Positions 13,152 to 64,000 of a DNA stretch of 64,000 nucleotides are shown in pieces (the first letter of the stretch is position 1; each line of letters opens with the position of its first letter). The DNA is from Sipunculus nudus (taxonomy: Eukaryota; Annelida; Sipuncula; Golfingiida; Sipunculidae), in NCBI GenBank assembly GCA_026874595.1, contig CM049308.1:43965327-44029326 (forward strand). Reading direction: 5' to 3'. Both the position numbers and the translations under genes were made by a program. Below the pieces are notes generated by a model. That model saw only the letters and a list, made by a program, of their open reading frames with translations, did no database searches and was not told where the DNA came from.

Positions 13152-13154
13152 TTA

Positions 13155-21893: not shown

Positions 21894-22956
21894 TTACCTG
21901 CTGGATCTACATGTGCATGTTCCACTGTTGTGTCCAGTTGCCCCGTTCCTGTCATCTTGGACCTGTTGTGTTGTATCCAGCTTCTCGAGATGATGGAGTA
22001 CTGAAGCCTTATCATATGCCAGCAGGAGGGATCCATCTGAAGCAAACAGAGATCGAGGCACCACACCAAACTCATAAGTACCAATGCACTCCTTGAGGTC
22101 TAGCTCTGGTCGACTTCTGGAAATAACAATAAAGCGTTGGAAAAGTCCTCGCTCTTCTTTGATTTTGACCACCTTGTCTCCAATTCTAATTTCGGACATT
22201 GCATTAGCACTTTTGAAGGTTCTCAATTTCTTTTTGATCATTTTGTCCCACACAGAGAGTTTTCCTTCTGTTAGGCGTCCATTGACAAAAATTTGAAACA
22301 TCTGTTGTCCAATCTCATCACGCTGAATGATATCGTTGGTAGCAGTTTCAGTCATAACTGCTTTGGTGAGCAGGTTGTATACCTCATCCTCATCAGAGGA
22401 TTCAAATGGGTTTCCGTGCTCATGAAATACTGTGGTGAGTCTGACTGCGTTTTGTGTTAATCGGGCGAGTTTTCCCCTTGTAAGCTCATGATGCTGTGTT
22501 CTCTTCTCTTTGTTGCTAGTGCAGTACTGTCTCTCAAATTCTTGTTGTACATTCGAAAGTTCAGGGGCGATGAGAAAGTATTTGTCCAGTGATTTTTCAT
22601 TCTGCGTGATTCCAAAAATGCCTCCAATAACCATGAGTTCACGATCCTTTGGTGACACGAAAATTCCCCTTCATGAACTCTGCCCAGATCTCAGGATACT
22701 GCTGTTCTGTCTGTTGCATTGTGGAAATGTACAGTGGTAGAAGGCGCGCATAGTTTAAATGATCATGGGCAAAGAAGTACTTCACTAGTGATTCCAGACT
22801 CTGCATTTGTAGCAATAGATCGCGTTGTCCAGTGGCTCGCATAAATTGGAGGATGGTCTCGAACTGCTTCATGTAGTTTCCGATGAAACGCTGAATTTTG
22901 TCTTCAGTACCTTCAGATTGTTTGATTTTTCGGAAGATGTCCCTAGATTCGAACAT
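21894..22956 (-). pseudogene. Transposase middle region (Academ-like element)
   Basis: Two overlapping minus-strand frames, 22956-22639 and 22658-21894, are joined by a frameshift at about 22650. They encode a helical, Gln/Leu-rich block and then a charged region with WDKMIKKKL and VVKIKEERGLFQRF. I recognise no named domain, but the block lies directly before the nuclease and keeps codon-like continuity, so it belongs to the same protein. Confidence 0.6.
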
Positions 22957-23074
22957 TTCGATTGTTTTCGTAACGGCATCACTGAGATTGTGTCTGCTTC
23001 CTGAGTCAGTATTGATGTCTTGCTGATACGCTTATCCCAAAATAGTGGACGTTTCCTTCAAGAAAGCTTTTTCA

Positions 23075-24658: not shown

Positions 24659-24753
24659 AGCAGGGCTGGGTCATTGATTTCAGTTTCCACCATGTCAAGT
24701 ATCTCCAGGTCAGACACTAACCGAGAAATTGAATCTGTTGTTTTGGGAGTCTG

Positions 24754-25422
24754 TTAGCTTTTTCTGTCTCGTGTTGCATGGCTTAAGCACAGAAGATGAT
24801 ATTTCATGTCGTCAGCAACTGCTGTAAGGAGATCGGATGAGTCTACAACATTGCTCAATCTGACTTTCAGAAGGGCATTGTTTGTCTGTTGGCCAATGAC
24901 TTTGAGTTGAGCTCCTATATTTTCAGTTTCAACATCGTGCAATTTGACTGCTTTATCTTCCTGACAAATGACACACTTTTCCTTGTCAAATGTCTGACTT
25001 CTCGTAGATCGCTGTGACGTGGAAGCACTTTCAGATGCAGCATCAGATTTTGGCGGCCGTCCTTTTGTCTTTTGTTTTACATAACTGGCACTGCCTGTCG
25101 CTTGTCCTTTCTCGTATCTGATCCTAGCTCGTTCAATGCATGTTTTATGTGCGAGATCCTTATAACATGTCTTGTGGTAGGAAATACCATTCTGTAACAG
25201 TTCATCGGCAAACAAACCTTTAATGCGACACTTCAATGCAGAGAACTCTGTTTCCCCATATGAACATCGAACATTAGTGGTTGTAATTAGTTTCTCTACT
25301 GAAGGCAAAGAAGGATGAAGCACATAGTTTGTAAAATCTGTTTGCTTGCTGCTCAACTGACAAATAAAGCATAGCGCTAATTCCACCCTTTTTGACTTCT
25401 TGTTAGATGCTGACTCTGCCAT
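24754..25422 (-). pseudogene. Transposase N-terminal region, cysteine-containing (Academ-like element)
   Basis: Starts at ATG 25422, about 340 bp inside the right inverted repeat, the natural position for the element gene. It has paired cysteines (LCFICQLSS near residue 18 and KCVICQED near residue 150), a conserved YHKTCYKDL at about residue 80, and a Ser/Thr-rich basic linker (KQKTKGRPPKSD). The Cys pairs suggest a zinc-binding module. It ends at a stop, and the frame changes downstream. Confidence 0.6.
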
Positions 25423-27680: not shown

Positions 27681-28002
27681 CCTTTGTCCTTCCTTCCGTC
27701 TGTCCCTTAAACTGGCATGTTTTGAAACAGTTGGACCTATGAATCTGAAATTCTGCATACAGTTAGATGTCCCCAAAATCTCCTACCATACCGAAAATTG
27801 GGTCACTAAGACTTTGTTCCTTCGAGATATTAAGGAATAACCTCCGTTTTCCATTAAAAAAAAACCCATTGTTACACTTCAAGACTGCCTAACATCAAAA
27901 CCACTGATTTTTTTTGTATCCATATTTTTCCATACATTTCCTAAGTACATACCAAAAATTACGTCAGTATTGCGTAATTTGTTGAAGTTTTTTAAAATTA
28001 TT
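27681..28002. other. Left flank of the inverted 45-bp block
   Basis: No gene. The stretch 27925-27990 (CATATTTTTCCATA, AAGTACATACC, ACGTCAGTATTGCGTAAT) resembles 34215-34300 on the same strand, so related sequence flanks both sides of the satellite complex. Confidence 0.5.
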
Positions 28003-28575
28003 ACAGATTCCTGACAGGATTTTGTTAGGCTCATATCTGCAGTTATTGAAGATACCTTACGGGTTATTGTTATGTTCATATCTGCACTAATTACAGATAC
28101 CTGACAGGTTATTGTTAGGCTCATATCTGTACTAATTACAGATACCTGACAGGTTATTGTTAGGCTCATATCTGTAGTAATTACAGTTACCTGACAGGCT
28201 ATTGTTAGGCTCATATCTATACTTATTACAAATACCATACAGGTTATTGTTAAGTTCATATCAGCAATTATAACAGATATATGGCAGGTTATTGTTAGGC
28301 TCATATCTGTAGGTATTACAGATACCGGACAGGTTATTGTTAGGCTCATATCTGCTGTTCATACAGATACCTGACAGGTTATTGTTAGGCTCATATCTAT
28401 ACTTATTACAGATAACTGACAGGTTATTGTTAGGCTCATATCTGTAGTTTTAACAAATACCTGACAGGTTATTGTTAGGCTCATGTCTGTAGGTATTACA
28501 GAAACCTGACAGGTTATTGTTAGGCTCATATCTGTACTAATCACAGAGACCTGACAGGTTATTCTTAGGGAGATA
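28003..28575 (-). repeat. 45-bp minisatellite, array 2 (minus orientation)
   Basis: About 12 units, reading GGCTCATATCTGT and ACCTGACAGGTTATTGTTA on the plus strand, i.e. the same unit as 4796-8190 inverted. The array is more homogeneous than array 1. It ends abruptly at 28575 (TTATTCTTAGG). Confidence 0.96.
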
Positions 28576-28745
28576 GGCGGGGAACTGTCGGTTTTCGGTA
28601 GCGGCCTGTAGTTAAGCTTATGGGACTTTTCGATTTTTCGCAGGCAGTTTCTCCTTAGTGCCGGCGAGGGGGGGGGATGGGGGGGGGGGGGATGGGGGAT
28701 GGAGGGGGGGGGGGGTGGAAGCTTTGGCAACCTGTAGTACCCTAA
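28576..28745. other. Junction segment with G-runs
   Basis: Non-repetitive start, then GAGGGGGGGGATGG, GGGGGGGGGGGG, GATGGGGGATGGA and GGGGGGGGGGGGG at 28667-28717. These runs of G could form quadruplexes on the plus strand. It joins the 45-bp block to the second satellite. Confidence 0.8.
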
Positions 28746-31700
28746 AAAAATTGGGAGGGGATAAAATTTATAGAAGCATCGCATTAATGTTAAGCTTGCC
28801 GGCAGGGTGAGTGGCATGTGAGCGGCCAGCCACAGGGGCCCCATGAATGGCACGCGCAAATAGCAGCTATTTGCTACCCTAAAAAATTAGGAGGGGGTAA
28901 AATTTATAGTAGCATCGCATTCAGCGTTACGACTGCCGACTGGGGAAGTGGACATGAGTTCGGGCAGACAGAGGGGGCCCGATAAATCGCACGCGCAAAT
29001 AGCAGCTATTTGCTACCCTAAAAAATTTAGGAGGGGGTTAAATTTCTGGTAGCATCGCATTGAGAGTTAAGATTGCCGCCAGGGGGAGTGGACTAGAGAC
29101 AGAACTGCCACAGAGGCCCTATGAATGGCACGCGCAAATAGCAGCTATTTGCTACCATAAAAGGTGTCAAGACTACCGCCAGGGGGAGTGGATAGCTCAG
29201 CAACCTGCGGAGGGTTCCCCATGAGTCGCAAGCGCAAATAGCAGCTATTCGCTACCAGAAAAGGTGTTAAGAATGCCACCAGGGGGAGTGGAGATCTCAG
29301 AGGCCTGCCACAGGGGCCTCATGAATCGCACGCGCTAATAGCAGCTATTTGCTACCATAAAAGTTGTCAAGACTGCCGCCAGGGGGAGAGGAGATCTCAG
29401 CGGCCTGGCAGAGGGGTCCCCACGAGTCGCAAGCGCAAATAGCAGCTATTTGCTACCATAATATATGTCAAGACTGCTGCCAGGGGGAGTGGACATCAGA
29501 GTGGACAGACAGAGAGGCCCCCATGAATCGCACGCGCAAATAGCAGCTATTTGCTACCCTTAAAAAATTAGGAGGGGGTAAAATTTCTGGTATCATCGCA
29601 TTGAGTGTTAAGACTGCCGCCAGGGGGGGAGGGGTGGACTAGAGAGCGGGCAGACAAAGAGGCCCCATGAATCGCACGCGCAAATAGCAGCTATTTGCTA
29701 CCATAATATATGTCAAGACTGCTGCCAGGGGGAGTGGACATCAGAGTGGACAGACAGAGGGGCCCCCATGAATTGCACGCGCAAATAGCAGCTATTTGCT
29801 ACCCTTAAAAAATTAGGAGGGGGTAATATCTCTGGTAGCATCGCATTGAGAGTTAAGATTGCCGCCAGAGGGAGTGGACTAGAGACAGGACTGCCACAGA
29901 GGCCCTATGAATCGCACGCGAAAATAGCAGCTATTTGCTATCAGAAAAGGTTTTAAGACTGCCACCAGGGGGAGTGGAGATCTCAGATCTCAGAGGCCTG
30001 GCAGAGCGGTCCCCATGAGTCGCAAGCGCAAATAGCAGCTATTTGCTACCATAAAAGGTGTCAAGACTGCCGTCAGGGGGAGTGAATAGCTCAGCAACCT
30101 GCGGAAAGTTCCCCATGAATCGCAAGCGCAAATAGCAGCTATTTGCTATCAGAAAAGGTGTTAAGACTGCCACCAGGGGGAGTGGAGATCTCAGATCTCA
30201 GCGGCCTGGCGGAGGGGTCCCCACGAGTCGCAAGCGCAAATAGCAGCTATTTGCTACCATAAAATATGTCAAGACTGCCGCCAGGGGGAGTGGACATGCG
30301 AGTCGACAGACAGAGGGGCCCCCATGAGTTGCACGCCCAAATAGCAGCTATTTGCTACCCTTAAAAATTAGGAGGGGGTAAAATTTATAGTAGCATCGCA
30401 TTGAGCGTTATGACTGCAACCAGGGGGAGTGGACATGAGTGCGCGCAGACAGAGGGGCCACCATGAATCGCACGTGCAAATAGCAGCTATTTGCTGCCCT
30501 AAAAAATTTAGGAGGGGGTAAAATTTCTAGTAGCATCGGAGTGGACTAGAGACAGGACTGCCACAGAGGCCCTATGTTTTGCACGCGCAAATAGCAGCTA
30601 TTTGCTACCATAAATAGATTCAATACTACCGCCAGGGGGAGTGGATAGCTCAGCAATCTGCGGAAAGTTCCCCATGAGTCGCAAGCGCAAATAGCAGCTA
30701 TTTGCTACCAGAAAAAGGTGTTAAGACTGCCACCAGGGGGAGTGGAGATCTCAGATCTCAGAGGCCTGGCAGAGGGGTCCCCATGAGTCGCAAGCGCAAA
30801 TAGCAGCTATTTGCTACCAGGAAAGGTATTAAGACTGCCACCAGGAGGAGTGGAGATCTCAGAGGCGTGCCACAGGGGCCCCATGAATCGCACGCGCAAA
30901 TAGCAGCTATTTGCTACCATAAATGTTGTCAAGACTACCGCCAAGCGGAGAGAAGATCTCAGCGGCCTGGCGGAGGGGTCCCCACATGTCGCAAGCGCAA
31001 ATAGCAGCTATTTGCTACCATAAAATATGTCAAGACTGCCGCCAGGGGGAGTGGTCATGCGAGTGGACAGACAGAGGGGCCCCCATGAGTTGCACGCCCA
31101 AATAGCAGCTATTTGCTACCTTTAGGAGGGGGTAAAATTTATAGTAGCATCGCATTGAGCGTTATGACTGCCACCAGGGGGAGTGGACATGAGTGCGCGC
31201 AGACAGAGGGGCCACCGTGAATCGCATGCGCAAATAGCAGCTATTTGTTACCCTAAAAAATTTAGGAGGTCATAAATTTCTGGTAGCATCGCATAAAGTG
31301 TTAAGACTGCCGCCAGGGGGAGTGGACATGAGACAGGACTGCCACAGGGACCCTATGAATCGCACGCGCAAATCGCAGCTATTTTCTACCATAAAAGGTG
31401 TCAAGACTGCCGCCAGGGGGAGTGGACATGAGAGTGGACAGACAGAGGGGCCCCCATGAGTCGCACGTGCAAATAGCACCTATTTGCTACCCTAAAAAAT
31501 TTAGGAGGGGGTAAAATTTCTGGTATCATCGCATTGAGTGTTAAGACTGCCGCCAGGGGGAGTGGACTAGAGAGCGGGCAGACAAAGGGCCCCCCATGAA
31601 TCGCACGCGCAAACAGCAGCTATTTGCTACCGTAAAAAATTTAGGAGGGGGTAAAATTTCTAGAAGCATCGCATTGAGTGTTAAGATTGCCGCCAGGGGG

Positions 31701-32165
31701 AGTGGACTAGAGACAGGACTGCCACACAGGCCCTATGAATCGCACGCGCAAGTAGCAGCTATTTGCTACCATAAAAGGTGTCAAGAGTGCCACCAGGGGA
31801 AGTGGAGATCTCAGAGGCCTGGCAGAGGGGTCCCCATGAGTCACAAGCGCAAAAAGCAGTTATTTGCTACCAGAAAAGGTGCCAAGACTGCCTCCAGGGG
31901 GAGTGGATATGAGACAGGACTGCCACAGGGACCTATGAATCGCAAGCGCAAATCGCAGCTATTTGCTACCATAAAAGGTTTCAAGACTGCCGCCAGGGGG
32001 AGTGGACATGAGAGTGGACAGACAGAGGGGCCCCCATGAGTCGCACGCACAAATAGCAGCTATTTGCTACCCTAAAAAATTTAGGAGGGGGTAAAATTTC
32101 TGGTATCATCGCATTGAGTGTTAAGACTGCCGCCAGGGGGGGGGGGTGGACTAGAGAGCGGGCAG
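28746..32165 (+). repeat. Second satellite, about 29 units of about 100 and 137-145 bp
   Basis: Every unit has the perfect inverted repeat GCAAATAG-CAG-CTATTTGC preceded by GAATCGCACGC or GAGTCGCAAGC, and then GACTGCCGCCAGGGGGAGTGG. Two length classes alternate. The short form has ATAAAAGGTGTCAA between these parts. The long form has AAAAATTTAGGAGGGGGTAA and GGTAGCATCGCATTGAG instead, about 40 bp longer. Units with related internal text (such as ATCTCAGATCTCAG) recur at intervals, so blocks were duplicated. Open frames over it (such as 31596-32039) are accidental. Confidence 0.96.
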
Positions 32166-32455
32166 ACAAAGGAACTTGTTAGGCTCACATCTGCAGTTAA
32201 TACAGATATATTTAAAGAGATTCTTGGGCTCATACTTGTAGTTATTACAGATCATTGGCAGGTTATTGTTAGGCTCATATCTGTAGTTATAAGAGATACC
32301 TGACAGGTTATTGTTAGGCTCATATCTGTAGTTATAACAGATACCTGACAGGTTATTGTTAGGCTCATATCTGCAGTTTTTACTGATACCTGACAGGTTA
32401 TTGTAAGGCTCATATCATTACTTGTTATATATATTTGACAGGTTATTATTAGGGT
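32166..32455 (-). repeat. 45-bp minisatellite, array 3 (minus orientation)
   Basis: About six units in the same orientation as array 2. Left joint is at GACAAAGG/AACTTGTTAGG; right joint is at TTATTATTAGG/GTATTTTTCATTTC. Together with array 2 it encloses the second satellite. Confidence 0.95.
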
Positions 32456-32965
32456 ATTTTTCATTTCAATCATTACAATGAAAAATAAATAATAAAATAA
32501 AATTATTGTTTACTATTAGGGATTATATGAAGCAAGATAATGATAGACAAGGGTGCAGTTGATTATATTAAATTAATATAAATTTCCAGGTCTTTCCAGG
32601 TGTTTAATTTGTTGGTTTAAATTTATTACAAAATTAAAAAATAATAAATATGTCAAAAGTTTAAAATAGTACTCAGACAAGTTCTCATTAAAGATGTCAA
32701 TATGTTTGACTGATGACATTAAGACTAATGGCTGTATCAGCTGTTACATGATACTGGCTAAATAATGAAAATTTATATTACTGATTCCTTTATTTAAGTT
32801 AATAAAATCAAACATTCCCAACTCCAGTTTGCTCCTTGTATAATATATTGGGTATTTTGATCCTTGAATTATTTTTAACACATGTATTAGTTTCATAGCT
32901 GAGAATACTTTTTTTTCTGATATGAAAAAAATAAATAAATAAATAAAAATATTCAAATTTTTCAT
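32456..32965 (-). repeat. Dispersed repeat F, copy 1
   Basis: The reverse complement matches 46885-47390 along its length: TTTTTCATTTCAATCAT, TTTACTATTAGGGATTAT, AGATAGACAA.G.TGCAGTT, TTGATTATATTAAATTAAT, TGTTGGTTTA, CAGCTGT and CTCCA.TTTGCTCC.TGTAT. Non-coding, AT-rich. Here it directly abuts array 3; the other copy has no array at that point. Confidence 0.75.
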
Positions 32966-34727
32966 CTTAGTGCTATGGATTTAATTTTCACAGCATATAC
33001 ACATAAGCATTTTATCTGTTAAAACCTGAAATTTGAAACCAATTGATCAAAAACTGTAGATATCATTCAAGTTTTCAAACATCATGTCTTGATTGTTTAC
33101 ATCAAGTCAGTATAAATGCAGTGTTCTAAGCTGTTACATAACACTATTAGTTCTGGCCTACTGCTTCCGTGAGTGTCTGGGTCAGGCAGTAATACCAGAG
33201 AGCCCCTCTCTCTCTCTCTCTCTCTCTCCCTCTCTCTCTCTCACCTAAATGCCTCCCTTCCTCCCTCCATCCAATTCTGTTGACAGGTACTAAAACCAGA
33301 TTAATTAGCTATAAATGTTGATGCAATTTAGAAATGTGAATCAACTGAAATATATACAATCACATATGTTATACCATAAATGTAACATTTTTAAACCTGG
33401 AAAAAACGATGTAATGAAAAAAAGGAATTAATGCAAATATTGTTAACATTTTTTTCCTGGCTCAGAAGAACGAGAAAAAAATGATTTGCTTTGTTTCTCC
33501 ATCTTTCTGCTTGTTTTAAATATTTAATGTTTATGAATAAACTGTTTTTCTTATAAGCAATGTTGAATTAAATTTCAAATTCTGTATGTATATGCAAGGG
33601 TCTTGTACCTCCTACCATCCCCTTCTTCACCCCACTGAGTCCTTGCTCCTTGGCACTGTGAACAATTGTTCTTTTTCTGTAGCATAAAATTTAATAATTA
33701 AAGAAAATATCTTCAGAGAGACAGACCTTGTAACTCCCATCATAACACCACCACCACCCCATCCCCCATCAAGTCATTCGACATGTGGAGTGGAGATGTT
33801 ATGGCAACTGTATACATATCATAAAACTGAAAAAAAAGGTTTATTAAATAAATTGGATCTCAATAGACTAATGTGTAAACTGTTGAACTGTCAACAGCTT
33901 ATCAAAAAGGTTACCAATGGAAAAGCAAGGTCAGATCTCAAAATATTATTTGCAAAAATTTCTTAAATCATATCAACCATCTATGGCCTAGATTACCTCA
34001 TCCTCTCAAACTTTATCTACATTTCATTACATTTTAGATTTTAACCCTCAAGGTGTTTAAGTACTGTTGAATGCTCCATCCCCCCCCCCCCCTCTCTCTC
34101 TCCTTTTCTCTACATCCAGTCCTCCTTGCTGCCCTCACTATTCACTTCTCCGAACCCTATCCCAATGTCAGTCTCAGTTAACAAGAACAAGATGAATAAG
34201 ATATATTCATATTTTTGTATTTTGTTTAAATATTTGTCCATAGGTACCTATGTACATGCCATAAATTATGTCAGTATTGTGTAATAAGTAGAAATGGTGG
34301 GCATCAAAATAATGTATGTCAATACCGAAGAGATATCATGTCATACAGTCACAAATTCATAAATCCCCTCATCAGCATAGTTTATCATTACATTATATCT
34401 GTCAAATTGAAAACTTGCAGACTTCCATACACTTTATATCCTTCAACATATAGCCTTATCATCATTCTAAAACTGCTTAGTATACTCTCATTGCATTCAT
34501 ATTTGCTCAAATAAATTGCTTTTTTTCGACCCCTCCCAAAAAAATAAAAAATAAACTTCTATATTTTACTCCATATTAATCCATCAGTCAGGTTAATTCA
34601 TATTTATCATTTACTTACATGTTACATTTTATTCCTTTTTAATAGCCCAACATGTCCATGATATCCATGAGCTTTATCGGCTCAATATAGTATCACAATA
34701 GTAATACATTTATAGTCCAATCATGAT
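32966..34727. other. AT-rich spacer with microsatellites
   Basis: No gene recognised. Contains a CT run at 33203-33241 (with CCTCCCTTCCTCCCTCC after it), a C run at about 34080-34092 followed by CT repeats, and the 34215-34300 segment resembling 27925-27990. Otherwise featureless. Confidence 0.5.
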
Positions 34728-34872
34728 CAGCTGAGCACCGTGACCCATGGGTCCCTTGTTTTTAAAAGGTAGGAAATGTTTTTTTTTTTGGTACAACATG
34801 GGAAAAGCCTCAACTATTTTCAAAGCACCCAAGGTTTAAAAAAAGGGACCCATTGGTCACGGCGCTCAGCTG
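34728..34872. mobile_element. 145-bp palindromic MITE
   Basis: The left end CAGCTGAGCACCGTGACC continues as CATGGGTCCCTT. The right end is its inverted copy with three or four mismatches, giving arms of about 38 bp around a core with a poly-T run. No clear target duplication. No protein. Confidence 0.75.
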
Positions 34873-46545: not shown

Positions 46546-46884
46546 TGGCTGCACCCTTATGTATGTATGTATGATTATGCAAAGTATCCACTAGCCTCCC
46601 CCTTGCTCAATCCTGGATCTGCCACTGATTGTAAGTATTCACTCAGTATCCCATATTTATTCAGTTTCAGTCAACTGAAACTTTTGAGTATCCAGGATAT
46701 ACAAATTTAAATAACCATCATAAGTACCTGGTTTTATGGCTTTAATTTATATTTAAAAAAAAAACATTCACTTCTGAATACTGTCACATCAGTCTACACA
46801 CTAAACATAGCAAGACATTTATGACAATTATTAACATTATAGACATCATAATGAGAATTTGTCTGATTTTTTTTATCACATTTG

Positions 46885-47390
46885 AATATTTTTATTTTTT
46901 TTTAAACGTATCAGAAAAAAATAAAAGTAATCTCTGCTATGAAAATATACTTGTTTTAAAACTAACCCGAGGATCAAAACGCAGAATATATTATACATGG
47001 AGCAAAGTGGAGTTGGAAATGTTTAATTTTATAAACTGATAAAAAGGAATCAGTACTCTCAATTAATTTACCTAGTATTATGTGACAGCTGATAGAGCCA
47101 CAAGTCTTAAATGTCATTAGTCAAACATTGACATCTTTAATGAGCACTTGTCTGAGTAATATTAAATTTTTTTTTATATATTCAATTTTTTTTTAATTTT
47201 GTAAGAAATATAAACCAACAAATTTAAACTCCTGGAAAAGACCTGTAAATTTAGATTAATTTAATATAATCAACTGCATCTTTGTCTATCTTTAATTTGC
47301 TTAAAATAATCCCTAATAGTAAACAGAAATTTTATTTAATTATTTATTTATATAATTATCATTTTTTATGATTGAAATGAAAAATACCAA
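46885..47390 (+). repeat. Dispersed repeat F, copy 2
   Basis: Inverted homologue of 32456-32965. It ends at GATTGAAATGAAAAATACC, the exact point where the other copy meets the 45-bp array. Non-coding. Confidence 0.75.
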
Positions 47391-47392
47391 AT

Positions 47393-47640
47393 GGTGACTG
47401 CATAGTGTCGTTTTGAAATCATTTTCTGTCATCTATAAAAGAGCCATACATCATCAGTAATTGCAAGGGTGTCTGTTACTCGTTAACAATAAATTTTTTT
47501 TCCATTTATTTTTCTTGTGACTGCATATTGTCGTTTTGAATTCATTTTCTGTCATCTATAAAAGAGCCATACATCATCAGTAATTGCAAGGGTGTCTGTT
47601 ACTCATTAACAATAAATTCCTTTTCCATTAATTTTTCTTA
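47393..47640. repeat. Two-copy tandem repeat, about 122-bp period
   Basis: GTGACTGCATA.TGTCGTTTTGAA, CATCTATAAAAGAGCCATAC and GGGTGTCTGTTACTC appear twice (about 47395 and 47517) with few changes. Confidence 0.9.
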
Positions 47641-49174: not shown

Positions 49175-50074
49175 GAAATCCTATCAATCTATCTTATCTT
49201 ATCCTGTGTGACCTTGTCTTATTATCTCAACTTTCTCATCTAATCTCATCCCAATCTATCTAACTAATCATTCTATCTACCTGTCTTATCTTATCCAATC
49301 TAATCATATCTAATAGTATCTAATCTTATCCTATTATCTTATCCTATATTATCTGATATTATTGTAATCAATCTTATCCTATCTAATCTTATCTTATTTT
49401 GTTCTACCTAACTTATACTTTCCCATCTAATCTTATCCAGCCTTATCCTGTGTGACCTTATCTCATTATCTTATCACATCTCATCCTTTCATCTTATCTT
49501 ATCCAAGATATCTCATCTTATCTATCTGATCATATCTGCCTCGTCTTATCTATCTCACCTCATCTTGTTTCTTCTTATCTATCTTATCTTTCTTATCTAA
49601 TTCCGATCCTTGCCTATCTATTATATATATCTTATCTAATATTATCCTATTTAATCATATCTTATCTATCCCATTAATCTATATCATCTTAAGTCTCATC
49701 ATATCTTATCTTTTCCATCTTATCTGGTACGTCTCGCCTTATCTTTTCTGTCTCACGTTATCTTTTATGTCTTATCTATTTAAATGAATATTAATTAGTT
49801 CATCTTATGTTATCTTTATCATTCTATCTATCTTATCTATCTCTTTTTTTCTGTCTCATTCCATTTAATCTATCCAGTCTATCTTATCTGATATAATCTG
49901 ATCTAATGTTATCTTATATAATGTTATCTAATATAATCTTTTACTACCTTATCCTGTCTTATACTATCTAATCTTATCCTATCTAAGCTTTTCCTATCCT
50001 ATCTAATCTTATTCTGTTCTATCTTATCTTAACATGTCTCATCCTATCTTATCCTGTCTCATCTCATCTTATCC
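49175..50074. repeat. Degenerate (ATCTT/ATCCT) simple-repeat tract
   Basis: About 900 bp of CTTATC, CTATCTAATC and TCATC words with a strong pyrimidine bias on the plus strand, few G, and no fixed period. It runs directly into the left end of the large 45-bp array. Confidence 0.93.
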
Positions 50075-50918
50075 GGTCAGGTAAGTGTTTAATTGCAGGT
50101 ATGAGCCTAACAATAACCTGTCATGTGTCTGTTATTAGTACAGATATGAGCCTAACAATATCCTGTCAGGTAACTGCAATAAGTACAGATATGAACCTTA
50201 CAATAACCTTTCATTTATCTGTTATAACTACAGATGTGGGCTTAACAATAACCTGTTATATATCTGTAATAAGTACAGATATCAGCCTAAAAATAACCTA
50301 CCATAGATTTGTAGGCCAAATAACTACAAATATAAGCCTTACAATAACCTGCCATATATCTGTAATAATCACTCATATGAGCCTAAGAATGAACTTTCGG
50401 GTATCTCGTATAACCACAGATCTTAGCTTAACAATAACCTGCCATATATCTGTAATAATTGCAGATATGAGCCTTACAATAACCTGCCATATATCTGTAA
50501 TAAATACAGATATGAACCTAACAATAACCTATCAGAAATCTGTTATAACTTCAGATCTGAGCTAAACAATAACCTGTCAGGTATCTGTTATAACCACAGA
50601 CATGAGCCTTACAATAACCTACCTTATATATGTAATTAATACTGATTTGAGCCTAACAATAACCTGTCAGGTATCTGTATTAAGTACAGATCTGAGCCTA
50701 ACGATGAATGTCATCTATCTGTTATAACTACAGATGTGAGCCTAACAATGACCTGCCATATATCTGTAATAAGTACAGATGTGAGCCTAACAATAACGTG
50801 TCAGGTATTTGTTATAACAACAGATCTGAGCTTTATAGTAACCTGTCAGGTATCTGTTATAACTCCAGATGTAGGCTCATAATATATAACCAGTTACATA
50901 TCTGAAATAAGTACAGAT

Positions 50919-53900
50919 ATGAGCCAAACAATAACCTACAATATATCTTCAGGCAAAATAACTATAACTATGAGCCTTACAATAACAAACCATCCATATG
51001 TAATAATTGCAGATCTAAGCCTAACAATAACCTGTCAGGTATCGGATATAACTACAGATCTGAGCTTAACAATAACCTGTTATATACCTGTAATAAGTAC
51101 AGATATTAGCCTAACGATGAATGTCATCTATCTGTTATAACTACAGATGTGAGCCAAAAAATGATCTGCCATATATCTGTAATAAGTACAGATATGAGCC
51201 TTACAATAGCCTACCTTATATATGTAATTAATACTGATTTGAGCCTAACAATAACCTGTCAGGTATCTGTAATAAGTACATATATGAACCTTAAAATAAA
51301 CTGTCAGGTATCTATATCATTATAATAAAGATATGAGCCTAATAATAACCTGTCAGGTGTCTGTTATTAGTACAGATATGAGCCTAAAAATATCCTGTCA
51401 GGTAACTGTAATAAGTTCAGTTATGAACCTTACAATAACCTGTAAGGTATCTGTTACAACTACAGATGTAGGCTTAACAATAACCTGTTATATATCTGTA
51501 ATAAGTACAGATATCAGCCTAAAAAAACCTACCATAGATTTGTAGGCCAAATAACTACAAATATAAGCCTTACAATAACCTGCCATATATCTGTAATAAT
51601 CACTCATATGAGCCTAACAATGAACTTTCTGGTATCTCTTATAACCACAGATCTTAGCTTAACAATAACCTGCCATATATCTGTAATAATTGCAGATATG
51701 AGCCTTACAATAACCTGCCATATATCTGTAATAAATACAGATATGAACCTAACAATAACCTGTCAGAAATCTGTTATAACTTCAGATCTGAGCTAAACAA
51801 TAACTTGTTATATACCTGTAATAAGTACAGATATGAGCCTAACAATAACCTGCCATATACCTGTAATAATCACTGACATGAGCCTAACAATGACCTGTCG
51901 GGTATCTGTTATAACCACAGATCTTAGCTTAACAATAACCTGCCATATATCTGTAATAATTGCAGATATGAGCCTAACAATAACCTGTCAGGTATTTGTC
52001 ATGATTACAGATATGAGCCTAACAATAACCTGTCAGGTATCTGTTATAACCACAGACATGAGCCTTACAAAAACCTACCTTATATATGTAATTAATACTG
52101 AATTGAGCCTAAAAATAACCTGTCAGGTGTCTGAAATTAGTACATATTTGAGCCTTACAATAACCTGTCATGTTTCTGTAATAAGAACAGATCTGAGCCT
52201 GACAACAACCTACAATATATATGTAATTAATACTGATTTGAGCCTAACAATAACCTGTCAGGTATCTGTAATAAGTACAGATGTGAGCCTAACAATAACG
52301 TGTCAGGTATTTGTTATAACAACAGATCTGAGCCTTATAATAACCTGTCAGGTATCTGTTATAACTCCAGATGTGGGCTCATAATATATAACCTGTTATA
52401 TATCTGAAATAAGTACAGATATGAGCCAAACAATAACCTACAATATATCTTCAGGCAAAATAACTATAACTATGAGCCTTACAATAACAAACCATCCATA
52501 TGTAATAATTGCAGATCTAAGCCTAACAATAACCTGTCAGGTATCTGATATAACTACAGATCTGAGCTTAACAATAACCTGTTATATACCTGTAATAAGT
52601 ACAGATATTAGCCTAACGATGAATGTCATCTATCTGTTATAACTACAGATGTGAGCCAAAAAATGATCTGCCATATATCTGTAATAAGTACAGATATGAG
52701 CCTTACAATAGCCTACCTTATATATGTAATTAATACTGATTTGAGCCTAACAATAACCTGTCAGGTATCTGTAATAAGTACATATATGAACCTTAAAATA
52801 AATTGTCAGGTATCTATATCATTATAATAAAGATATGAGCCTAATAATAACCTGTCAGGTGTCTGTTATTAGTACAGATATGAGCCTAAAAATATCCTGT
52901 CAGGTAACTGTAATAAGTTCAGTTATGAACCTTACAATAACCTGTAAGGTATCTGTTACAACTACAGATGTGGGCTTAACAATAACCTGTTATATTTCTG
53001 TAATAAGTACAGATATCAGCCTAAAAAAAACCTACCATAGATTTGTAGGCCAAATAACTACAAATATAAGCCTTACAATAACCTGCCATATATCTGTAAT
53101 AATCACTCATATGAGCCTAACAATGACCTTTCGGGTATCTGTTATAACCACAGATCTTAGCTTAACAATAACCTGCCATATATCTGTAATAATTGCAGAT
53201 ATGAGCCTTACAATAACCTTTCATTTATCTGTAATAAATACAGATATGAACCTAACAATAACCTGTCAGAAATCTGTTATAACTTCAGATCTGAGCTAAA
53301 AAATAACTTGTTATATACCTGTAATAAGTACAGATATGAGCCTAACAATAACCTGCCATATACCTGTAATAATCACTGACATGATGGTTATAACCACAGA
53401 CATGAGCCTTACAATAACCTACCTTATATATGTAATTAATACTGAATTGAGCCTAACAATAACCTGTCAGGTATCTGTAATAAGTACATATATGAACCTT
53501 AAAATAAATTGTCAGGTATCTATATCATTATAATAAAGATATGAGCCTAATAATAACCTGTCAGGTGTCTGTTATTAGTACAGATATGAGCCTAAAAATA
53601 TCCTGTCAGGTAACTGTAATAAGTTCAGTTATGAACCTTATAATAACCTGTAAGGTATCTGTTACAACTACAGATGTGGGCTTAACAATAACCTGTTATA
53701 TATCTGAAATAAGTACAGATATGAGCCAAACAATAACCTACAATATATCTTCCGGCAAAATAACTATAACTATGAGCCTTACAATAACAAACCATCCATA
53801 TGTAATAATTGCAGATCTAAGGCTTACAATAACCTGTCAGGTATCTGATATAACTACAGATCTGAGCTTAACAATAACCTGTTATATACCTGTAATAAGT

Positions 53901-53920
53901 ACAGATATTAGCCTAATGAT
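50919..53920 (+). repeat. Higher-order repeat, about 1,502-bp period
   Basis: The segment beginning at 50919 (GAGCCAAACAATAACC, then TCTTCAGGCAAAATAAC) recurs at 52421, and 51333 recurs at 52835, both 1,502 bp later and nearly identical. A shortened third version follows from 53541. Confidence 0.9.
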
Positions 53921-56900
53921 GAATGTCATCTATCTGTTATAACTACAGATGTGAGCCAAAAAATTAAATGCCATATATCTGTAATAAGTACAGATATGAG
54001 CCTTACAATAGCCTACCTTATATATGTAATTAATACTGATTTGAGCCTAACAATAACCTGTCAGGTATCTGTAATAAGTACATATATAAAACCTTAAAAT
54101 AAATTGTCAGGTATCTATATCATTATAATAAAGATATGAGCCTAATAATAACCTGTCAGGTGTCTGTTATTAGTACAGATATGAGCCTAAAAATATCCTG
54201 TCAGGTAACTGTAATAAGTTCAGTTATGAACCTTACAATAACCTGTAAGGTATCTGTTACAACTACAGATGTGGGCTTAACAATAACCTGTTATATATCT
54301 GTAATAAGTACAGATATCAGCCTAAAAATAACCTACCATAGATTTGTAGGCCAAATAACTACAAATATAAGCCTTACAATAACCTGCCATATATCTGTAA
54401 TAATCACTCATATGAGCCTAACAATGACCTTTCGGGTATCTCTTATAACCACAGATCTTAGCTTAACAATAACCTGCCATATATCTGTAATAATTGCAGA
54501 TATGAGCCTTACAATAACCTTTCATTTATCTGTAATAAATACAGATATGAACCTATAAATAACCTGTCAGAAATCTGTTATAACTTCAGATCTGAGCTAA
54601 AAAATAACTTGTTATATACCTGTAATAAGTACAGATATGAGCCTAACAATAACCTGCCATATACCTGTAATAATCACTGACATGAGCCTAACAATGACCT
54701 GTCGGGTATCTGTTATAACCACAGATCTTAGCTTAACAATAACCTGCCATATATCTGTAATAATTGCAGATATGAGCCTAACAATAACCTGTCAGGTATT
54801 TGTCATGATTACAGATATGAGCCTAACAATAACCTGTCAGGTATCTGTTATAACCACAGACATGAGCCTTACAATAACCTACCTTATATATGTAATTAAT
54901 ACTGAATTGAGCCATACAATAACCTGTCAGGTGTCTGAAATTAGTACATATTTGAGCCTTACAATAACCTGTCATGTGTCTGTAATAAGAACAGGTCGGA
55001 GCCTGACAACAACCTACAATGTATAAGAAATTAATACTGAATTGAGCCTAACAATAACCTGTCAGGTATCTGTAATAAGTACAGATGTAAGCCTTACAAT
55101 AACCTGCCATATATCTGTAATAATCACTGATATGAGGCTAACAATGACCTTTCGGGTATCTGTTATAACCACAGTTCTTAGCTTAACAATAACCTGCCAT
55201 ATATCTGTAATAATTGCAGATATGAGCCTTACAATAACCTTTCATTTATCTGTTATAACTACAGATGTTGGCTTAACAATAACCTGTTATATACCTGAAA
55301 TAAGTACAGATATGAGCCTAACAATAATCTACCAGAGATTTGTAGGCCATATAACTACAAATATGAGCCTTACAATAACCAGCCATCTATATGTAATAAT
55401 TGCAGATATGAGCCTGAAAATAACCTGCCATATACCTGTAATTCGTACAGATATGAGCCTTACAATAACTTGTCAGGTGTCTGTTATTAGTACAGATATA
55501 AGCCTAATAATATCCTGTCAGGTAACTGTAATTATTACAGATATGAACCTTACAATACCCTGTCAGGTATCTGTTATAACCACAGATCTAAGCCTAACAA
55601 TAACCTGCCATATATCTGTAATAAGTACAGATATGAGTCGTACAATTATCTACCTTATATATGTAATTAATACTGATTTGAGCCTAACAATAACCTGTTA
55701 GTTATTTGTAATAGTTACAGAAATGAGCCTTACAATAACATGTGAGGTATCTGTTATAACTACAGATTTGAACCTAACAATAACCTGTCAGGTATCTGTT
55801 ATAAGTAAAGATCTGAGCCTGACAATAATCATCAGGTATTTGTCATGATTACAGATCTGAGCCTAACAATAACCTGTTATAAACCTGTAATAAGTACAGA
55901 TCTGAGCCTAACAATACCCTGCCATATATCTGTAATAATCACTGACACGAGCCTAACAATGACCTGTTGGGTATCTGTTATAACTACAGATGTGACCCTA
56001 ACAATAACCTGTCAGGTATCTGTAATAAGTACATATATGAACCTTAAAATAACCTGTCAGGTATCTATATCATTATAATAAAGATATGAGCCTAATAATA
56101 ACCTGTCAGGTATCTGTAATATGTACAGATATGAGCCTATCAATAACCTGTCAGGTAACTGTAATAAGTTTAGATATGAGCCTAACAATAACCTCTCAGG
56201 TATCTGTGATAACTACAGATGTAAGCCTAACAATAACCTCTCAGGTATCTGTGATAACTACAGATGTAAGCCTAACAATAACCTGCCATATATCTGTAAT
56301 TATCACTGATATGAGCCTAACAATGAACTTTCGGGTATCTGTTATAACCACAGATCTTAGCTTAACAATAACCTGCCATATATCTGTAATAATTGCAGAT
56401 ATGAGCCTTACAATGAACTGCCATATATCTGTAATAAATACAGATATGAACCTTACAATAACCTGTCAGAAATCTGTTATAACTACAGATCTGAGCTAAA
56501 CAATAACCTGTTTTATACCTGTAATAAATACAGATATGAGCCTAACAATAACCTGCCATATATCTGTAATAATCACTGACATGAGCCTAACAATGACCTG
56601 TCGGGTATCTGTTATAACCACAGATCTTAGCTTAACAATAACCTGCCATATATCTGTAATAATTGCAGATATGAGCCTAACAATAACCTGTCAGGTATTT
56701 GTCATGATTACAGATATGAGCTTAACAATAACCTGTCAGGTGTCTTGTTATTACCACAGACATAAGTTTTACAATAACCTACCTTATATATGTAATTAAT
56801 ACTGAATTGAGCCTAACAATAACCTGTCAGGTATCTGTAATAAGTACAGATGTAAGCCTTACAATAACCTGCCATATATCTGTAATAATCACTGATATGA

Positions 56901-59900
56901 GGCTAACAATGACCTTTCGGGTATCTGTTATAACCACAGATCTTAGCTTAACAATAACCTGCCATATATCTGTAATAATTGCAGATATGAGCCTTACAAT
57001 AACCTTTCATTTATCTGTTATAACTACAGATGTTGGCTTAACAATAACCTGTTATATACCTGAAATAAGTACAGATATGAGCCTAACAATAATCTACCAG
57101 AGATTTGTAGGCCATATAACTACAAATATGAGCCTTACAATAACCAGCCATCTATATGTAATAATTGCAGATATGAGCCTGAAAATAACCTGCCATATAC
57201 CTGTAATTCGTACAGATATGAGCCTTACAATAACTTGTCAGGTGTCTGTTATTAGTACAGATATAAGCCTAATAATATCCTGTCAGGTAACTGTATTTAT
57301 TACAGATATGAACCTTACAATACCCTGTCAGGTATCTGTTATAACCACAGATCTAAGCCTAACAATAACCTGCCATATATCTGTAATAAGTACAGATATG
57401 AGTCGTACAATTATCTACCTTATATATGTAATTAATACTGATTTGAGCCTAACAATAACCTGTTAGTTATTTGTAATAGTTACAGAAATGAGCCTTACAA
57501 TAACATGTGAGGTATCTGTTATAACTACAGATTTGAACCTAACAATAACCTGTCAGGTATCTGTTATAAGTAAAGATCTGAGCCTGACAATAATCATCAG
57601 GTATTTGTCATGATTACAGATCTGAGCCTAACAATAACCTGTTATAAACCTGTAATAAGTACAGATCTGAGCCTAACAATACCCTGCCATATATCTGTAA
57701 TAATCACTGACACGAGCCTAACAATGACCTGTTGGGTATCTGTTATAACTACAGATGTGACCCTAACAATAACCTGTCAGGTATCTGTAATAAGTACATA
57801 TATGAACCTTAAAATAACCTGTCAGGTATCTATATCATTATAATAAAGATATGAGCCTAACAATAACCTGTCAGGTATCTGTAATATGTACAGATATGAG
57901 CCTATCAATAACCTGTCAGGTAACTGTAATAAGTTTAGATATGAGCCTAACAATAACCTCTCAGGTATCTGTGATAACTACAGATGTAAGCCTAACAATA
58001 ACCTCTCAGGTATCTGTGATAACTACAGATGTAAGCCTAACAATAACCTGCCATATATCTGTAATTATCACTGATATGAGCCTAACAATGAACTTTCGGG
58101 TATCTGTTATAACCACAGATCTTAGCTTAACAATAACCTGCCATATATCTGTAATAATTGCAGATATGAGCCTTACAATGAACTGCCATATATCTGTAAT
58201 AAATACAGATATGAACCTAACAATAACCTGTCAGAAATCTGTTATAACTTCAGATCTGAGCTAAAAAATAACTTGTTATATACCTGTAATAAGTACAGAT
58301 ATGAGCCTAACAATAACCTGCCATATACCTGTAATAATCACTGACATGAGCCTAACAATGACCTGTCTGGTATCTGTTATAACCACAGATCTTAGCTTAA
58401 CAATAACCTGCCATATATCTGTAATAATTGCAGATATGAGCCTAACAATAACCTGTCAGGTATTTGTCATGATTACAGATATGAGCCTAACAATAACCTG
58501 TCAGGTATCTGTTATAACCACAGACATGAGCCTTACAATAACCTACCTTATATATGTAATTAATACTGAATTGAGCCTAACAATAACCTGTCAGGTATCT
58601 GTAATAAGTACATATATGAACCTTAAAATAAATTGTCAGGTATCTATATCATTATAATAAAGATATGAGCCTAATAATAACCTGTCAGGTGTCTGTTATT
58701 AGTACAGATATGAGCCTAAAAATATCCTGTCAGGTAACTGTAATAAGTTCAGTTATGAACCTTATAATAACCTGTAAGGTATCTGTTACAACTACAGATG
58801 TGGGCTTAACAATAACCTGTTATATATCTGAAATAAGTACAGATATGAGCCAAACAATAACCTACAATATATCTTCCGGCAAAATAACTATAACTATGAG
58901 CCTTACAATAACAAACCATCCATATGTAATAATTGCAGATCTAAGGCTTACAATAACCTGTCAGGTATCTGATATAACTACAGATCTGAGCTTAACAATA
59001 ACCTGTTATATACCTGTAATAAGTACAGATATTAGCCTAATGATGAATGTCATCTATCTGTTATAACTACAGATGTGAGCCAAAAAATTAAATGCCATAT
59101 ATCTGTAATAAGTACAGATATGAGCCTTACAATAGCCTACCTTATATATGTAATTAATACTGATTTGAGCCTAACAATAACCTGTCAGGTATCTGTAATA
59201 AGTACATATATGAACCTTAAAATAAATTGTCAGGTATCTATATCATTATAATAAAGATATGAGCCTAATAATAACCTGTCAGGTGTCTGTTATTAGTACA
59301 GATATGAGCCTAAAAATATCCTGTCAGGTAACTGTAATAAGTTCAGTTATGAACCTTACAATAACCTGTAAGGTATCTGTTACAACCACAGATGTGGGCT
59401 TAACAATAACCTGTTATATATCTGTAATAAGTACAGATATCAGCCTAAAAATAACCTACCATAGATTTGTAGGCCAAATAACTACAAATATAAGCCTTAC
59501 AATAACCTGCCATATATCTGTAATAATCACTCATATGAGCCTAACAATGACCTTTCGGGTATCTCTTATAACCACAGATCTTAGCTTAACAATAACCTGC
59601 CATATATCTGTAATAATTGCAGATATGAGCCTTACAATAACCTTTCATTTATCTGTAATAAATACAGATATGAACCTATAAATAACCTGTCAGAAATCTG
59701 TTATAACTTCAGATCTGAGCTAAAAAATAACTTGTTATATACCTGTAATAAGTACAGATATGAGCCTAACAATAACCTGCCATATACCTGTAATAATCAC
59801 TGACATGAGCCTAACAATGACCTGTCGGGTATCTGTTATAACCACAGATCTTAGCTTAACAATAACCTGCCATATATCTGTAATAATTGCAGATATGAGC

Positions 59901-62900
59901 CTAACAATAACCTGTCAGGTATTTGTCATGATTACAGATATGAGCCTAACAATAACCTGTCAGGTATCTGTTATAACCACAGACATGAGCCTTACAATAA
60001 CCTACCTTATATATGTAATTAATACTGAATTGAGCCATACAATAACCTGTCAGGTGTCTGAAATTAGTACATATTTGAGCCTTACAATAACCTGTCATGT
60101 GTCTGTAATAAGAACAGGTCGGAGCCTGACAACAACCTACAATGTATAAGAAATTAATACTGAATTGAGCCTAACAATAACCTGTCAGGTATCTGTAATA
60201 AGTACAGATGTAAGCCTTACAATAACCTGCCATATATCTGTAATAATCACTGATATGAGGCTAACAATGACCTTTCGGGTATCTGTTATAACCACAGTTC
60301 TTAGCTTAACAATAACCTGCCATATATCTGTAATAATTGCAGATATGAGCCTTACAATAACCTTTCATTTATCTGTTATAACTACAGATGTTGGCTTAAC
60401 AATAACCTGTTATATACCTGAAATAAGTACAGATATGAGCCTAACAATAATCTACCAGAGATTTGTAGGCCATATAACTACAAATATGAGCCTTACAATA
60501 ACCAGCCATCTATATGTAATAATTGCAGATATGAGCCTGAAAATAACCTGCCATATACCTGTAATTCGTACAGATATGAGCCTTACAATAACTTGTCAGG
60601 TGTCTGTTATTAGTACAGATATAAGCCTAATAATATCCTGTCAGGTAACTGTAATTATTACAGATATGAACCTTACAATACCCTGTCAGGTATCTGTTAT
60701 AACCACAGATCTAAGCCTAACAATAACCTGCCATATATCTGTAATAAGTACAGATATGAGTCGTACAATTATCTACCTTATATATGTAATTAATACTGAT
60801 TTGAGCCTAACAATAACCTGTTAGTTATTTGTAATAGTTACAGAAATGAGCCTTACAATAACATGTGAGGTATCTGTTATAACTACAGATTTGAACCTAA
60901 CAATAACCTGTCAGGTATCTGTTATAAGTAAAGATCTGAGCCTGACAATAATCATCAGGTATTTGTCATGATTACAGATCTGAGCCTAACAATAACCTGT
61001 TATAAACCTGTAATAAGTACAGATCTGAGCCTAACAATACCCTGCCATATATCTGTAATAATCACTGACACGAGCCTAACAATGACCTGTTGGGTATCTG
61101 TTATAACTACAGATGTGACCCTAACAATAACCTGTCAGGTATCTGTAATAAGTACATATATGAACCTTAAAATAACCTGTCAGGTATCTATATCATTATA
61201 ATAAAGATATGAGCCTAATAATAACCTGTCAGGTATCTGTAATATGTACAGATATGAGCCTATCAATAACCTGTCAGGTAACTGTAATAAGTTTAGATAT
61301 GAGCCTAACAATAACCTCTCAGGTATCTGTGATAACTACAGATGTAAGCCTAACAATAACCTCTCAGGTATCTGTGATAACTACAGATGTAAGCCTAACA
61401 ATAACCTGCCATATATCTGTAATTATCACTGATATGAGCCTAACAATGAACTTTCGGGTATCTGTTATAACCACAGATCTTAGCTTAACAATAACCTGCC
61501 ATATATCTGTAATAATTGCAGATATGAGCCTTACAATGAACTGCCATATATCTGTAATAAATACAGATATGAACCTTACAATAACCTGTCAGAAATCTGT
61601 TATAACTACAGATCTGAGCTAAACAATAACCTGTTTTATACCTGTAATAAATACAGATATGAGCCTAACAATAACCTGCCATATATCTGTAATAATCACT
61701 GACATGAGCCTAACAATGACCTGTCGGGTATCTGTTATAACCACAGATCTTAGCTTAACAATAACCTGCCATATATCTGTAATAATTGCAGATATGAGCC
61801 TAACAATAACCTGTCAGGTATTTGTCATGATTACAGATATGAGCTTAACAATAACCTGTCAGGTGTCTTGTTATTACCACAGACATAAGTTTTACAATAA
61901 CCTACCTTATATATGTAATTAATACTGAATTGAGCCTAACAATAACCTGTCAGGTATCTGTAATAAGTACAGATGTAAGCCTTACAATAACCTGCCATAT
62001 ATCTGTAATAATCACTGATATGAGGCTAACAATGACCTTTCGGGTATCTGTTATAACCACAGATCTTAGCTTAACAATAACCTGCCATATATCTGTAATA
62101 ATTGCAGATATGAGCCTTACAATAACCTTTCATTTATCTGTTATAACTACAGATGTTGGCTTAACAATAACCTGTTATATACCTGAAATAAGTACAGATA
62201 TGAGCCTAACAATAATCTACCAGAGATTTGTAGGCCATATAACTACAAATATGAGCCTTACAATAACCAGCCATCTATATGTAATAATTGCAGATATGAG
62301 CCTGAAAATAACCTGCCATATACCTGTAATTCGTACAGATATGAGCCTTACAATAACTTGTCAGGTGTCTGTTATTAGTACAGATATAAGCCTAATAATA
62401 TCCTGTCAGGTAACTGTATTTATTACAGATATGAACCTTACAATACCCTGTCAGGTATCTGTTATAACCACAGATCTAAGCCTAACAATAACCTGCCATA
62501 TATCTGTAATAAGTACAGATATGAGTCGTACAATTATCTACCTTATATATGTAATTAATACTGATTTGAGCCTAACAATAACCTGTTAGTTATTTGTAAT
62601 AGTTACAGAAATGAGCCTTACAATAACATGTGAGGTATCTGTTATAACTACAAATTTGAACCTAACAATAACCTGTCAGGTATCTGTTATAAGTAAAGAT
62701 CTGAGCCTGACAATAATCATCAGGTATTTGTCATGATTACAGATCTGAGCCTAACAATAACCTGTTATAAACCTGTAATAAGTACAGATCTGAGCCTAAC
62801 AATACCCTGCCATATATCTGTAATAATCACTGACACGAGCCTAACAATGACCTGTTGGGTATCTGTTATAACTACAGATGTGACCCTAACAATAACCTGT

Positions 62901-63631
62901 CAGGTATCTGTAATAAGTACATATATGAACCTTAAAATAACCTGTCAGGTATCTATATCATTATAATAAAGATATGAGCCTAACAATAACCTGTCAGGTA
63001 TCTGTAATATGTACAGATATGAGCCTATCAATAACCTGTCAGGTAACTGTAATAAGTTTAGATATGAGCCTAACAATAACCTCTCAGGTATCTGTGATAA
63101 CTACAGATGTAAGCCTAACAATAACCTCTCAGGTATCTGTGATAACTACAGATGTAAGCCTAACAATAACCTGCCATATATCTGTAATTATCACTGATAT
63201 GAGCCTAACAATGAACTTTCGGGTATCTGTTATAACCACAGATCTTAGCTTAACAATAACCTGCCATATATCTGTAATAATTGCAGATATGAGCCTTACA
63301 ATGAACTGCCATATATCTGTAATAAATACAGATATGAACCTAACAATAACCTGTCAGAAATCTGTTATAACTTCAGATCTGAGCTAAAAAATAACTTGTT
63401 ATATACCTGTAATAAGTACAGATATGAGCCTAACAATAACCTGCCATATACCTGTAATAATCACTGACATGAGCCTAACAATGACCTGTCTGGTATCTGT
63501 TATAACCACAGATCTTAGCTTAACAATAACCTGCCATATATCTGTAATAATTGCAGATATGAGCCTAACAATAACCTGTCAGGTATTTGTCATGATTACA
63601 GATATGAGCCTAACAATAACCTGTCAGGTAT
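53386..63631 (+). repeat. Higher-order repeat, 5,123-bp period, two copies
   Basis: Every landmark recurs 5,123 bp later: 54136/59259, 54637/59760, 55042/60165, 56086/61209, 56807/61930, 57851/62974 and 58301/63424. Only three differences were seen by eye: an indel at about 54085, T/C at 54264/59387, and G/A at 57530/62653. A third copy starts at about 63632 and runs off the end. Confidence 0.93.
55042..58571 (+). repeat. Nested higher-order repeat, 1,765-bp period
   Basis: 55042 recurs at 56807 and 56086 at 57851 (1,765 bp). Copy-specific marks, such as a Val/Asp codon change in the fourth unit, are retained in both 5,123-bp copies. The 1,765-bp duplication therefore came first. Confidence 0.9.
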
Positions 63632-64000
63632 CTGTTATAACCACAGACATGAGCCTTACAATAACCTACCTTATATATGTAATTAATACTGAATTGAGCC
63701 TAACAATAACCTGTCAGGTATCTGTAATAAGTACATATATGAACCTTAAAATAAATTGTCAGGTATCTATATCATTATAATAAAGATATGAGCCTAATAA
63801 TAACCTGTCAGGTGTCTGTTATTAGTACAGATATGAGCCTAAAAATATCCTGTCAGGTAACTGTAATAAGTTCAGTTATGAACCTTATAATAACCTGTAA
63901 GGTATCTGTTACAACTACAGATGTGGGCTTAACAATAACCTGTTATATATCTGAAATAAGTACAGATATGAGCCAAACAATAACCTACAATATATCTTCC

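Follow-up and report, generated by a model that had tools for sequence, protein, structure and literature searches.

Mutator/foldback elements and satellites born from foldback elements are already known, the closest described systems being Tm1 and Tetris. Tm1, a Mutator/Foldback family of root-knot nematodes, has composite terminal inverted repeats with a variable number of short tandem repeats, produces 9-bp target duplications (8–10 bp in 45 of 53 cases) and includes autonomous members with a Mutator-like transposase (PMC3169594). In Tetris, a foldback transposon of Drosophila virilis assigned to the Mutator superfamily by its authors and flanked by target duplications of 8–10 bp, the tandem repeats in the inverted ends have expanded to satellite-like arrays (PMC4079207). 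The stretch of DNA analyzed here, referred to as the window, comprises 64,000 nucleotides of the Sipunculus nudus genome (C3:43,965,327–44,029,326; genome size 1.43 Gb) and lies at 44.0 of 97.9 Mb along C3. It harbors a long array of a 45-bp unit, which is very probably the right arm (subterminal inverted-repeat domain) of a foldback-type Mutator-like transposon that is old and non-autonomous, and which would since have expanded to a higher-order satellite.

Similar to Tm1, the family of this array shows a Mutator-type transposase, inverted ends built from repeats and 9-bp duplications. However, the internal motif of Tm1 is ∼14 bp and its quoted bacterial artificial chromosome copy 1,080 bp (PMC3169594), whereas here the unit is 45 bp, the arms extend to kilobases, the largest element measures 43.5 kb and one of the arms is a higher-order satellite. 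The growth of a satellite from repeats within inverted ends is shared with Tetris, whose 220-bp unit forms arrays of as many as 66 copies and for which no autonomous member was found (PMC4079207). In contrast to Tetris, copies with the transposase of a Mutator-like element (MULE) are present in the same genome here, and higher-order layers are nested within the expanded arm. The present case joins Tm1-like and Tetris-like features in one genome and adds the higher-order layer. Target-site duplications of MULEs are 8–11 bp long, those of the Phantom and Rehavkus clades 8–10 bp or 9 bp, and a minisatellite follows the transposase in aphid Phantoms and Rehavkus (PMC6446971). The present family resembles these clades in target-duplication length and in having a minisatellite. 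In the mollusc MULE groups tabulated in the same paper, inverted repeats measure 48 and 296 bp or are lacking. MULEs were present in all mollusc genomes analyzed in PMC10294476, the part used here containing no mention of arm arrays, and no mollusc Mutator/foldback element with satellite arms was found among the papers listed from the mostly open-access literature.

Tandem Repeats Finder (TRF) detected a single 45-bp array in the window at 50,096–63,986 (306.5 copies, 73% matches, score 11,208). As the best scores of 20 order-1 Markov sequences of equal composition were 35–65, the array is not a product of chance. Its onset is at ∼50,075, and it extends beyond the window edge to the window-equivalent position 68,842 (413.5 copies by TRF), followed by different DNA; the total length is 18.7 kb. 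The nested repeats of 1,502, 1,765, and 5,123 bp recorded by the first-pass annotation were borne out by TRF and self-comparison, and the duplications were observed directly at the following positions.

50,075–64,000, on to 68,842 outside the window, plus strand: array, assigned as right arm of the element (TRF; arm orientation rule)
53,387–58,509, plus strand: 5,123-bp higher-order repeat, copy 1 (self-comparison)
58,510–63,632, plus strand: 5,123-bp higher-order repeat, copy 2 (self-comparison)
From ∼63,633 past the window edge, plus strand: partial copy 3 of the 5,123-bp repeat (self-comparison)
55,029–58,506, plus strand: 1,765-bp layer (55,029–56,741 vs. 56,794–58,506), 12 mismatches in 1,713 (0.7%)
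50,761–53,029, plus strand: 1,502-bp layer (50,761–51,527 vs. the stretch 1,502 bp onward), 9 mismatches in 767 (1.2%)

Self-comparison at a lag of 5,124 showed 0 mismatches over 53,387–54,087, and at a lag of 5,123 there were 2 mismatches from 54,090 on (54,264 and 57,530). The 5,123-bp copies differ by two substitutions and one 1-bp indel, close to the three or so differences estimated earlier by eye. With flanking DNA included, the match spans 7,150 bp (701 + 6,449), still with 2 mismatches. The partial third copy holds a 1,411-bp duplication of its own (1 mismatch in 1,424). Divergence falls across the nested layers from 1.2% (1,502 bp) to 0.7% (1,765 bp) and to far less at 5,123 bp, the 1,765- and 1,502-bp layers being older than the 5,123-bp layer. 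Among the options put forward from the sequence alone, a very recent amplification in tandem, on several nested scales, is supported. Layering is not peculiar to C3, since a C15 array of the family has layers of its own (lag 1,080, 22 mismatches in 897; lag 405, 1 mismatch in 405).

The assignment of the array to a transposon follows from related copies elsewhere. Two copies on C10, both read whole, carry a ∼344-bp terminal domain outside each array. The similarity between them stops at GGAAAGCACTT/AAGTGCTTTCC, and the terminal domain ends in GGAARRCACTT. A complete element consists of a terminal domain and a 45-bp array in each arm (minus strand in the left, plus strand in the right) around an interior; in C10A and C10B, the domain and array at either end form long terminal inverted repeats. 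The genome-wide searches with array, terminal domain and transposase yielded best candidates, and the array matches listed exclude the query's own array. The terminal domain and tip search identified seven paired elements of 2.85–43.5 kb.

C10:144,657–154,694, paired tips: C10A, perfect direct repeat read by eye
C10:8,325,442–8,338,299, paired tips: C10B, 8 of 10 flank bases match
C10:9,863,768–9,866,616, paired tips: 2.85-kb element, no target duplication
C6:30,490,866–30,498,939, paired tips: C6 element, perfect direct repeat by eye with the right tip set 9 bp further out
C15:7,037,313–7,055,205, paired tips: 17.9-kb element, perfect direct repeat by script
C15:29,201,760–29,241,730, paired tips: 40.0-kb element, perfect direct repeat by script
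C11:67,180,807–67,224,314, paired tips: 43.5-kb element, perfect direct repeat by script

Perfect flanking direct repeats of 9–10 bp were present at five of the seven tip pairs (three by script; C10A and C6 by eye), which is within the length range of MULE target duplications. A 1.2-kb array piece used as query gave 74 listed matches, many of them minus/plus pairs on C2, C10, C11, and C15. Among the 44 within elements, all 12 in left halves were on the minus strand and all 32 in right halves on the plus strand. These matches come from five of the seven elements with mirror arms in each, so that the inverted arms of tandem repeats typical of foldback elements are found in five of seven tip-delimited copies. 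Ends, target duplications and arm orientation were thereby observed directly. The merged array spans in tip-delimited copies do not exceed ∼6 kb among the matches listed, which makes the 18.7-kb arm of the window exceptional. Of the matches outside the seven elements, 8 lie at the C3 locus and 7 beside a left tip on C2, for which the terminal domain and tip search found no partner tip.

The transposase domains were likewise observed directly. In MULEs, the transposase of an autonomous copy often includes a zinc finger. Interior exons of the 40.0-kb C15 copy match the Pfam models PF21056, PF15299, PF10551, and PF04434 (ZSWIM1-3 RNaseH-like, ALS2CR8, MULE, and SWIM). With the four exons joined, PF10551 scored 32.9 bits (cut-off 27.6), PF21056 46.3, and SWIM 21.2. 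Joined at GT/AG splice sites, the exons keep one reading frame free of stops, and the last one runs to a stop; the identified part of the gene comprises these four exons up to the stop and not its 5′ part. Over the 1,120 bp compared, intron included, the gene of the C11 copy is 100% identical to that of the 40.0-kb C15 copy, while the target duplications of the two copies differ. Together, the identical gene and the different duplications point to recent movement, and the two are regarded as candidate autonomous copies. Sixteen of the 46 listed transposase matches fall within the seven elements (135 kb of tip-delimited DNA), i.e., six in the C11 element, six in the 40.0-kb and four in the 17.9-kb C15 element; the other 30 reflect related genes elsewhere in the genome. 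Candidates for the catalytic D, D, and E, picked by eye, lie in LLDATYKTT, MVDFCEAE, and NNGIERQN. Comparison of the first transposase exon with solved structures gave no match. No transposase remnant was detected in the C3 region, C10A, or C10B apart from one chance-level match (E 0.89) outside the window.

Older transposase pieces were also seen on the minus strand at C15:29,205,451–29,206,597, C11:67,187,019–67,188,253, and C15:7,040,904–7,042,140. These pieces, several of them with stops, show at best 89% protein identity and occupy the left-arm zone in the three larger elements. Each of these elements may accordingly be a nested composite that was mobilized as one. A further decayed copy is possibly present on C7, where a terminal-domain match (C7:41,798,012–41,798,084) and, 6 kb away, transposase matches containing stops (41,803,678–41,804,568) were noted.

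The copy in the window has its left arm at 27,998–32,453, its right arm at 50,075–68,842 and its right tip at 88,769, with blocks in the same order as in C10A.

27,998–28,569, minus strand: left arm, outer array piece, inverted relative to the right arm (TRF)
28,570–32,175, no strand: GC-rich ∼100-bp satellite inside the left arm, between the two array pieces (TRF)
32,176–32,453, minus strand: left arm, inner array piece, inverted match to the C10A arrangement (TRF)
32,457–33,550, plus strand: interior block bordering the left arm on its inner side, 85.8% to C10:146,162–147,281, next to the minus array of C10A
34,111–34,763, minus strand: interior block common to C10B, 82% identity
38,430–43,173, plus strand: retroelement gag/pol-like open reading frames (ORFs) in the element interior (Pfam zf-CCHC, RVT_1)
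49,188–50,070, plus strand: TATCT-rich block bordering the right arm on its inner side, 86.7% to C10:150,501–151,364, next to the plus array of C10A

The first ∼0.5 kb of the 32,457–33,550 block has an inverted match (80%) at 46,882–47,384. The TATCT density is 57.8 per kb in the 49,188–50,070 block vs. 1.9 in 8.5–27 kb. Beyond the window edge, three pieces of the terminal domain come next, the last ending in an exact 19-nt tip at 88,769. A 9.4-kb insertion at 69,624–79,037 (window-equivalent) splits the terminal domain. It is flanked by an exact 8-bp duplication, GTGTCAAG, its inverted ends are alike, and it resembles a DNA transposon from a different superfamily. Near the left edge of the window lies a second broken copy.

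4,783–8,183, plus strand: right arm, followed by the terminal domain (TRF)
8,185–8,416, plus strand: terminal domain piece 1, 83–89% to the C10 terminal domains
12,595–12,670, plus strand: terminal domain piece 2 (terminal-domain match)
12,764–12,854, plus strand: terminal domain piece 3, 90–97%, last ∼9 bp of the tip unmatched

A pol ORF at 1,457–2,920 with RNase H and integrase zinc-binding Pfam matches was observed between plus-array pieces of this second copy (−4,159 to −3,879 and 4,783–8,183); given this position, a retroelement probably inserted into the arm.

Several observations weigh against the assignment of the array to a transposon arm. The left tip of the window copy was not found, there being no minus-strand match to the terminal domain left of 27,998; the copy consequently has neither a pair of tips nor a target duplication and was classed as decayed. 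The flanks of C10B agree at only 8 of 10 bases and the 2.85-kb element has no duplication, while the C6 and 2.85-kb elements have no array match among those listed. Outside the seven elements lie 30 of the 74 array matches and 30 of the 46 transposase matches. With a single exon, the MULE model stays below its cut-off (26.3 vs. 27.6 bits) and passes only with four exons joined, and the link between transposase and arms is one of co-location. Finally, there is no clear sign that the unit arose from the terminal domain, a derivation put forward for Tetris: 2 of 200 shuffles were as good on one strand and 80 of 200 on the other. A derivation from the TATCT block was not detected either (166 and 198 of 200 shuffles as good).

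This unclear origin, together with the two tip-delimited elements lacking an array match, would fit the capture of a pre-existing 45-bp satellite into MULE ends, with the arms as passengers and not a working part. Such a capture is considered unlikely, as mirror-oriented arrays occupy both arms of five of the seven elements immediately inside the terminal domain. It is improbable that a single 5,123-bp copy was duplicated in the assembly. The two substitutions and one indel over 7,150 bp are what such an artifact might show, but the repeat boundaries fall within the array, the partial third copy has its own, differently phased 1,411-bp duplication, and the C15 array has its own layers (1,080 and 405 bp).

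The first-pass annotation had likened the repeats to those of centromeric or other rapidly evolving satellites. As a structural higher-order satellite with no tie to a transposon, the array does have genuine higher-order layers, and with the locus at 44.0 of 97.9 Mb a centromere could be near. However, the array is just 18.7 kb long, and near-exact 29-mers of the unit (≤1 mismatch) number 150 in the whole 1.43 Gb (reversed control 0), with 39 of the 59 exact ones at the C3 locus. Whereas centromeric satellites form abundant arrays at the centromeres of most chromosomes, the long matches here sit in transposons, and copies occur at transposon tips in scattered places such as C10:0.15 Mb. The scarce and dispersed family, with its inverted arms and target-site duplications of a Mutator-type transposon, makes the centromeric interpretation very improbable. 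Helentrons and HINEs are not known to produce a multi-base target duplication on insertion, whereas five of the seven tip pairs here have 9–10 bp ones, along with inverted tips and a MULE-type transposase. A Helentron-like element is hence scarcely credible, even though the Cg_HINE Helentrons of the Pacific oyster, Crassostrea gigas, are mobile carriers of satellite-like arrays; their repeats are central (PMC7492417), while the arrays here are inverted arms and a 9-bp duplication accompanies insertion. A repetitive protein encoded by the array (open frame of the unit, MSLTITCQVSVISTD) can be practically dismissed, since in 158 indel-free of 185 units stops occur at 0.063 per unit vs. 0.074 predicted by column-independent variation, i.e., without coding constraint, despite open frames of up to 269 amino acids in 45-bp arrays and somewhat more variable third codon positions (0.185 vs. 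0.132 and 0.140).

A conserved hairpin in the unit was also considered and rejected, as small inverted repeats showed no clear covariation. Folding of four 90-nt array stretches against shuffles gave z values of −5.8, −6.1, −2.8, and −1.45 (non-array control −0.89). Across units, pairing clearly exceeded that of shuffled columns in one of six tests (11 of 1,000 shuffles as good), and pairing changes on both sides appeared in none of the six.

Among the other features, the unit of the GC-rich satellite in the left arm (28,738–32,077) holds CTGCCRCCAGGGGGAGTGG, which seems to resemble the CTCF core motif. The exact 19-mer occurs 1,990 times genome-wide (966 + 1,024; reversed control 0), with many kilobase clusters among the places listed. 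Six neighboring minus-strand ORFs of 121–254 amino acids at 20,881–25,422, with no Pfam match at E 0.01, are possibly one broken gene. A 354-bp inverted pair (13,154–13,505 and 17,496–17,848; 94% identity) and a 123-bp unit present twice at 47,394–47,639 (95% matches) were also noted. Scans of the window for tRNAs and Rfam families gave no match.

For the expanded transposon arm, the following course is proposed. The intron-containing MULE-type transposase of the two largest copies presumably recognizes the element ends, excises the element and, on insertion, generates a 9-bp target duplication. In the window copy, the left tip is gone, other insertions split the element and no recognizable transposase is present. 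Its right arm would then have grown to 18.7 kb at the same site through successive segmental duplications in tandem, those of 1,502 and 1,765 bp presumably preceding those of 5,123 and 1,411 bp. Unequal crossing-over would be the simplest route from such an arm to a young higher-order satellite. We infer that the transposase moves these ends, that arm growth came after insertion and that unequal exchange drove it.

The arms themselves may have a function. Galileo of Drosophila has long inverted ends with internal tandem repeats, and transposase binding sites lie in two of the four tandem repeats of its end; for Foldback and Phantom, arm binding by transposase is described as untested in the same source (PMC3688188). 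Galileo belongs to the P-element superfamily, whereas the transposase here is MULE-type and its binding to the 45-bp units is putative. By this analogy, it is possible, though doubtful, that the 45-bp arms serve the element's transposase as arrays of multiple binding sites and, by the same property, act as seeds of higher-order satellites. If so, each insertion would bring in a pair of inverted minisatellites, and one of the pair could expand unchecked into a layered satellite. The genome would then show the stages together: recently moved candidate autonomous copies, short-armed non-autonomous copies and a decayed copy in which one arm has expanded massively. Arrays of this kind are likely to be misread as centromeric, a reading corrected here. 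Through the C3 array, a young higher-order satellite is linked to one particular transposon family, of which candidate autonomous copies with intact target duplications are present in the same genome, and if the arms do bind the transposase, the birth of a satellite from transposon ends would be directly testable.

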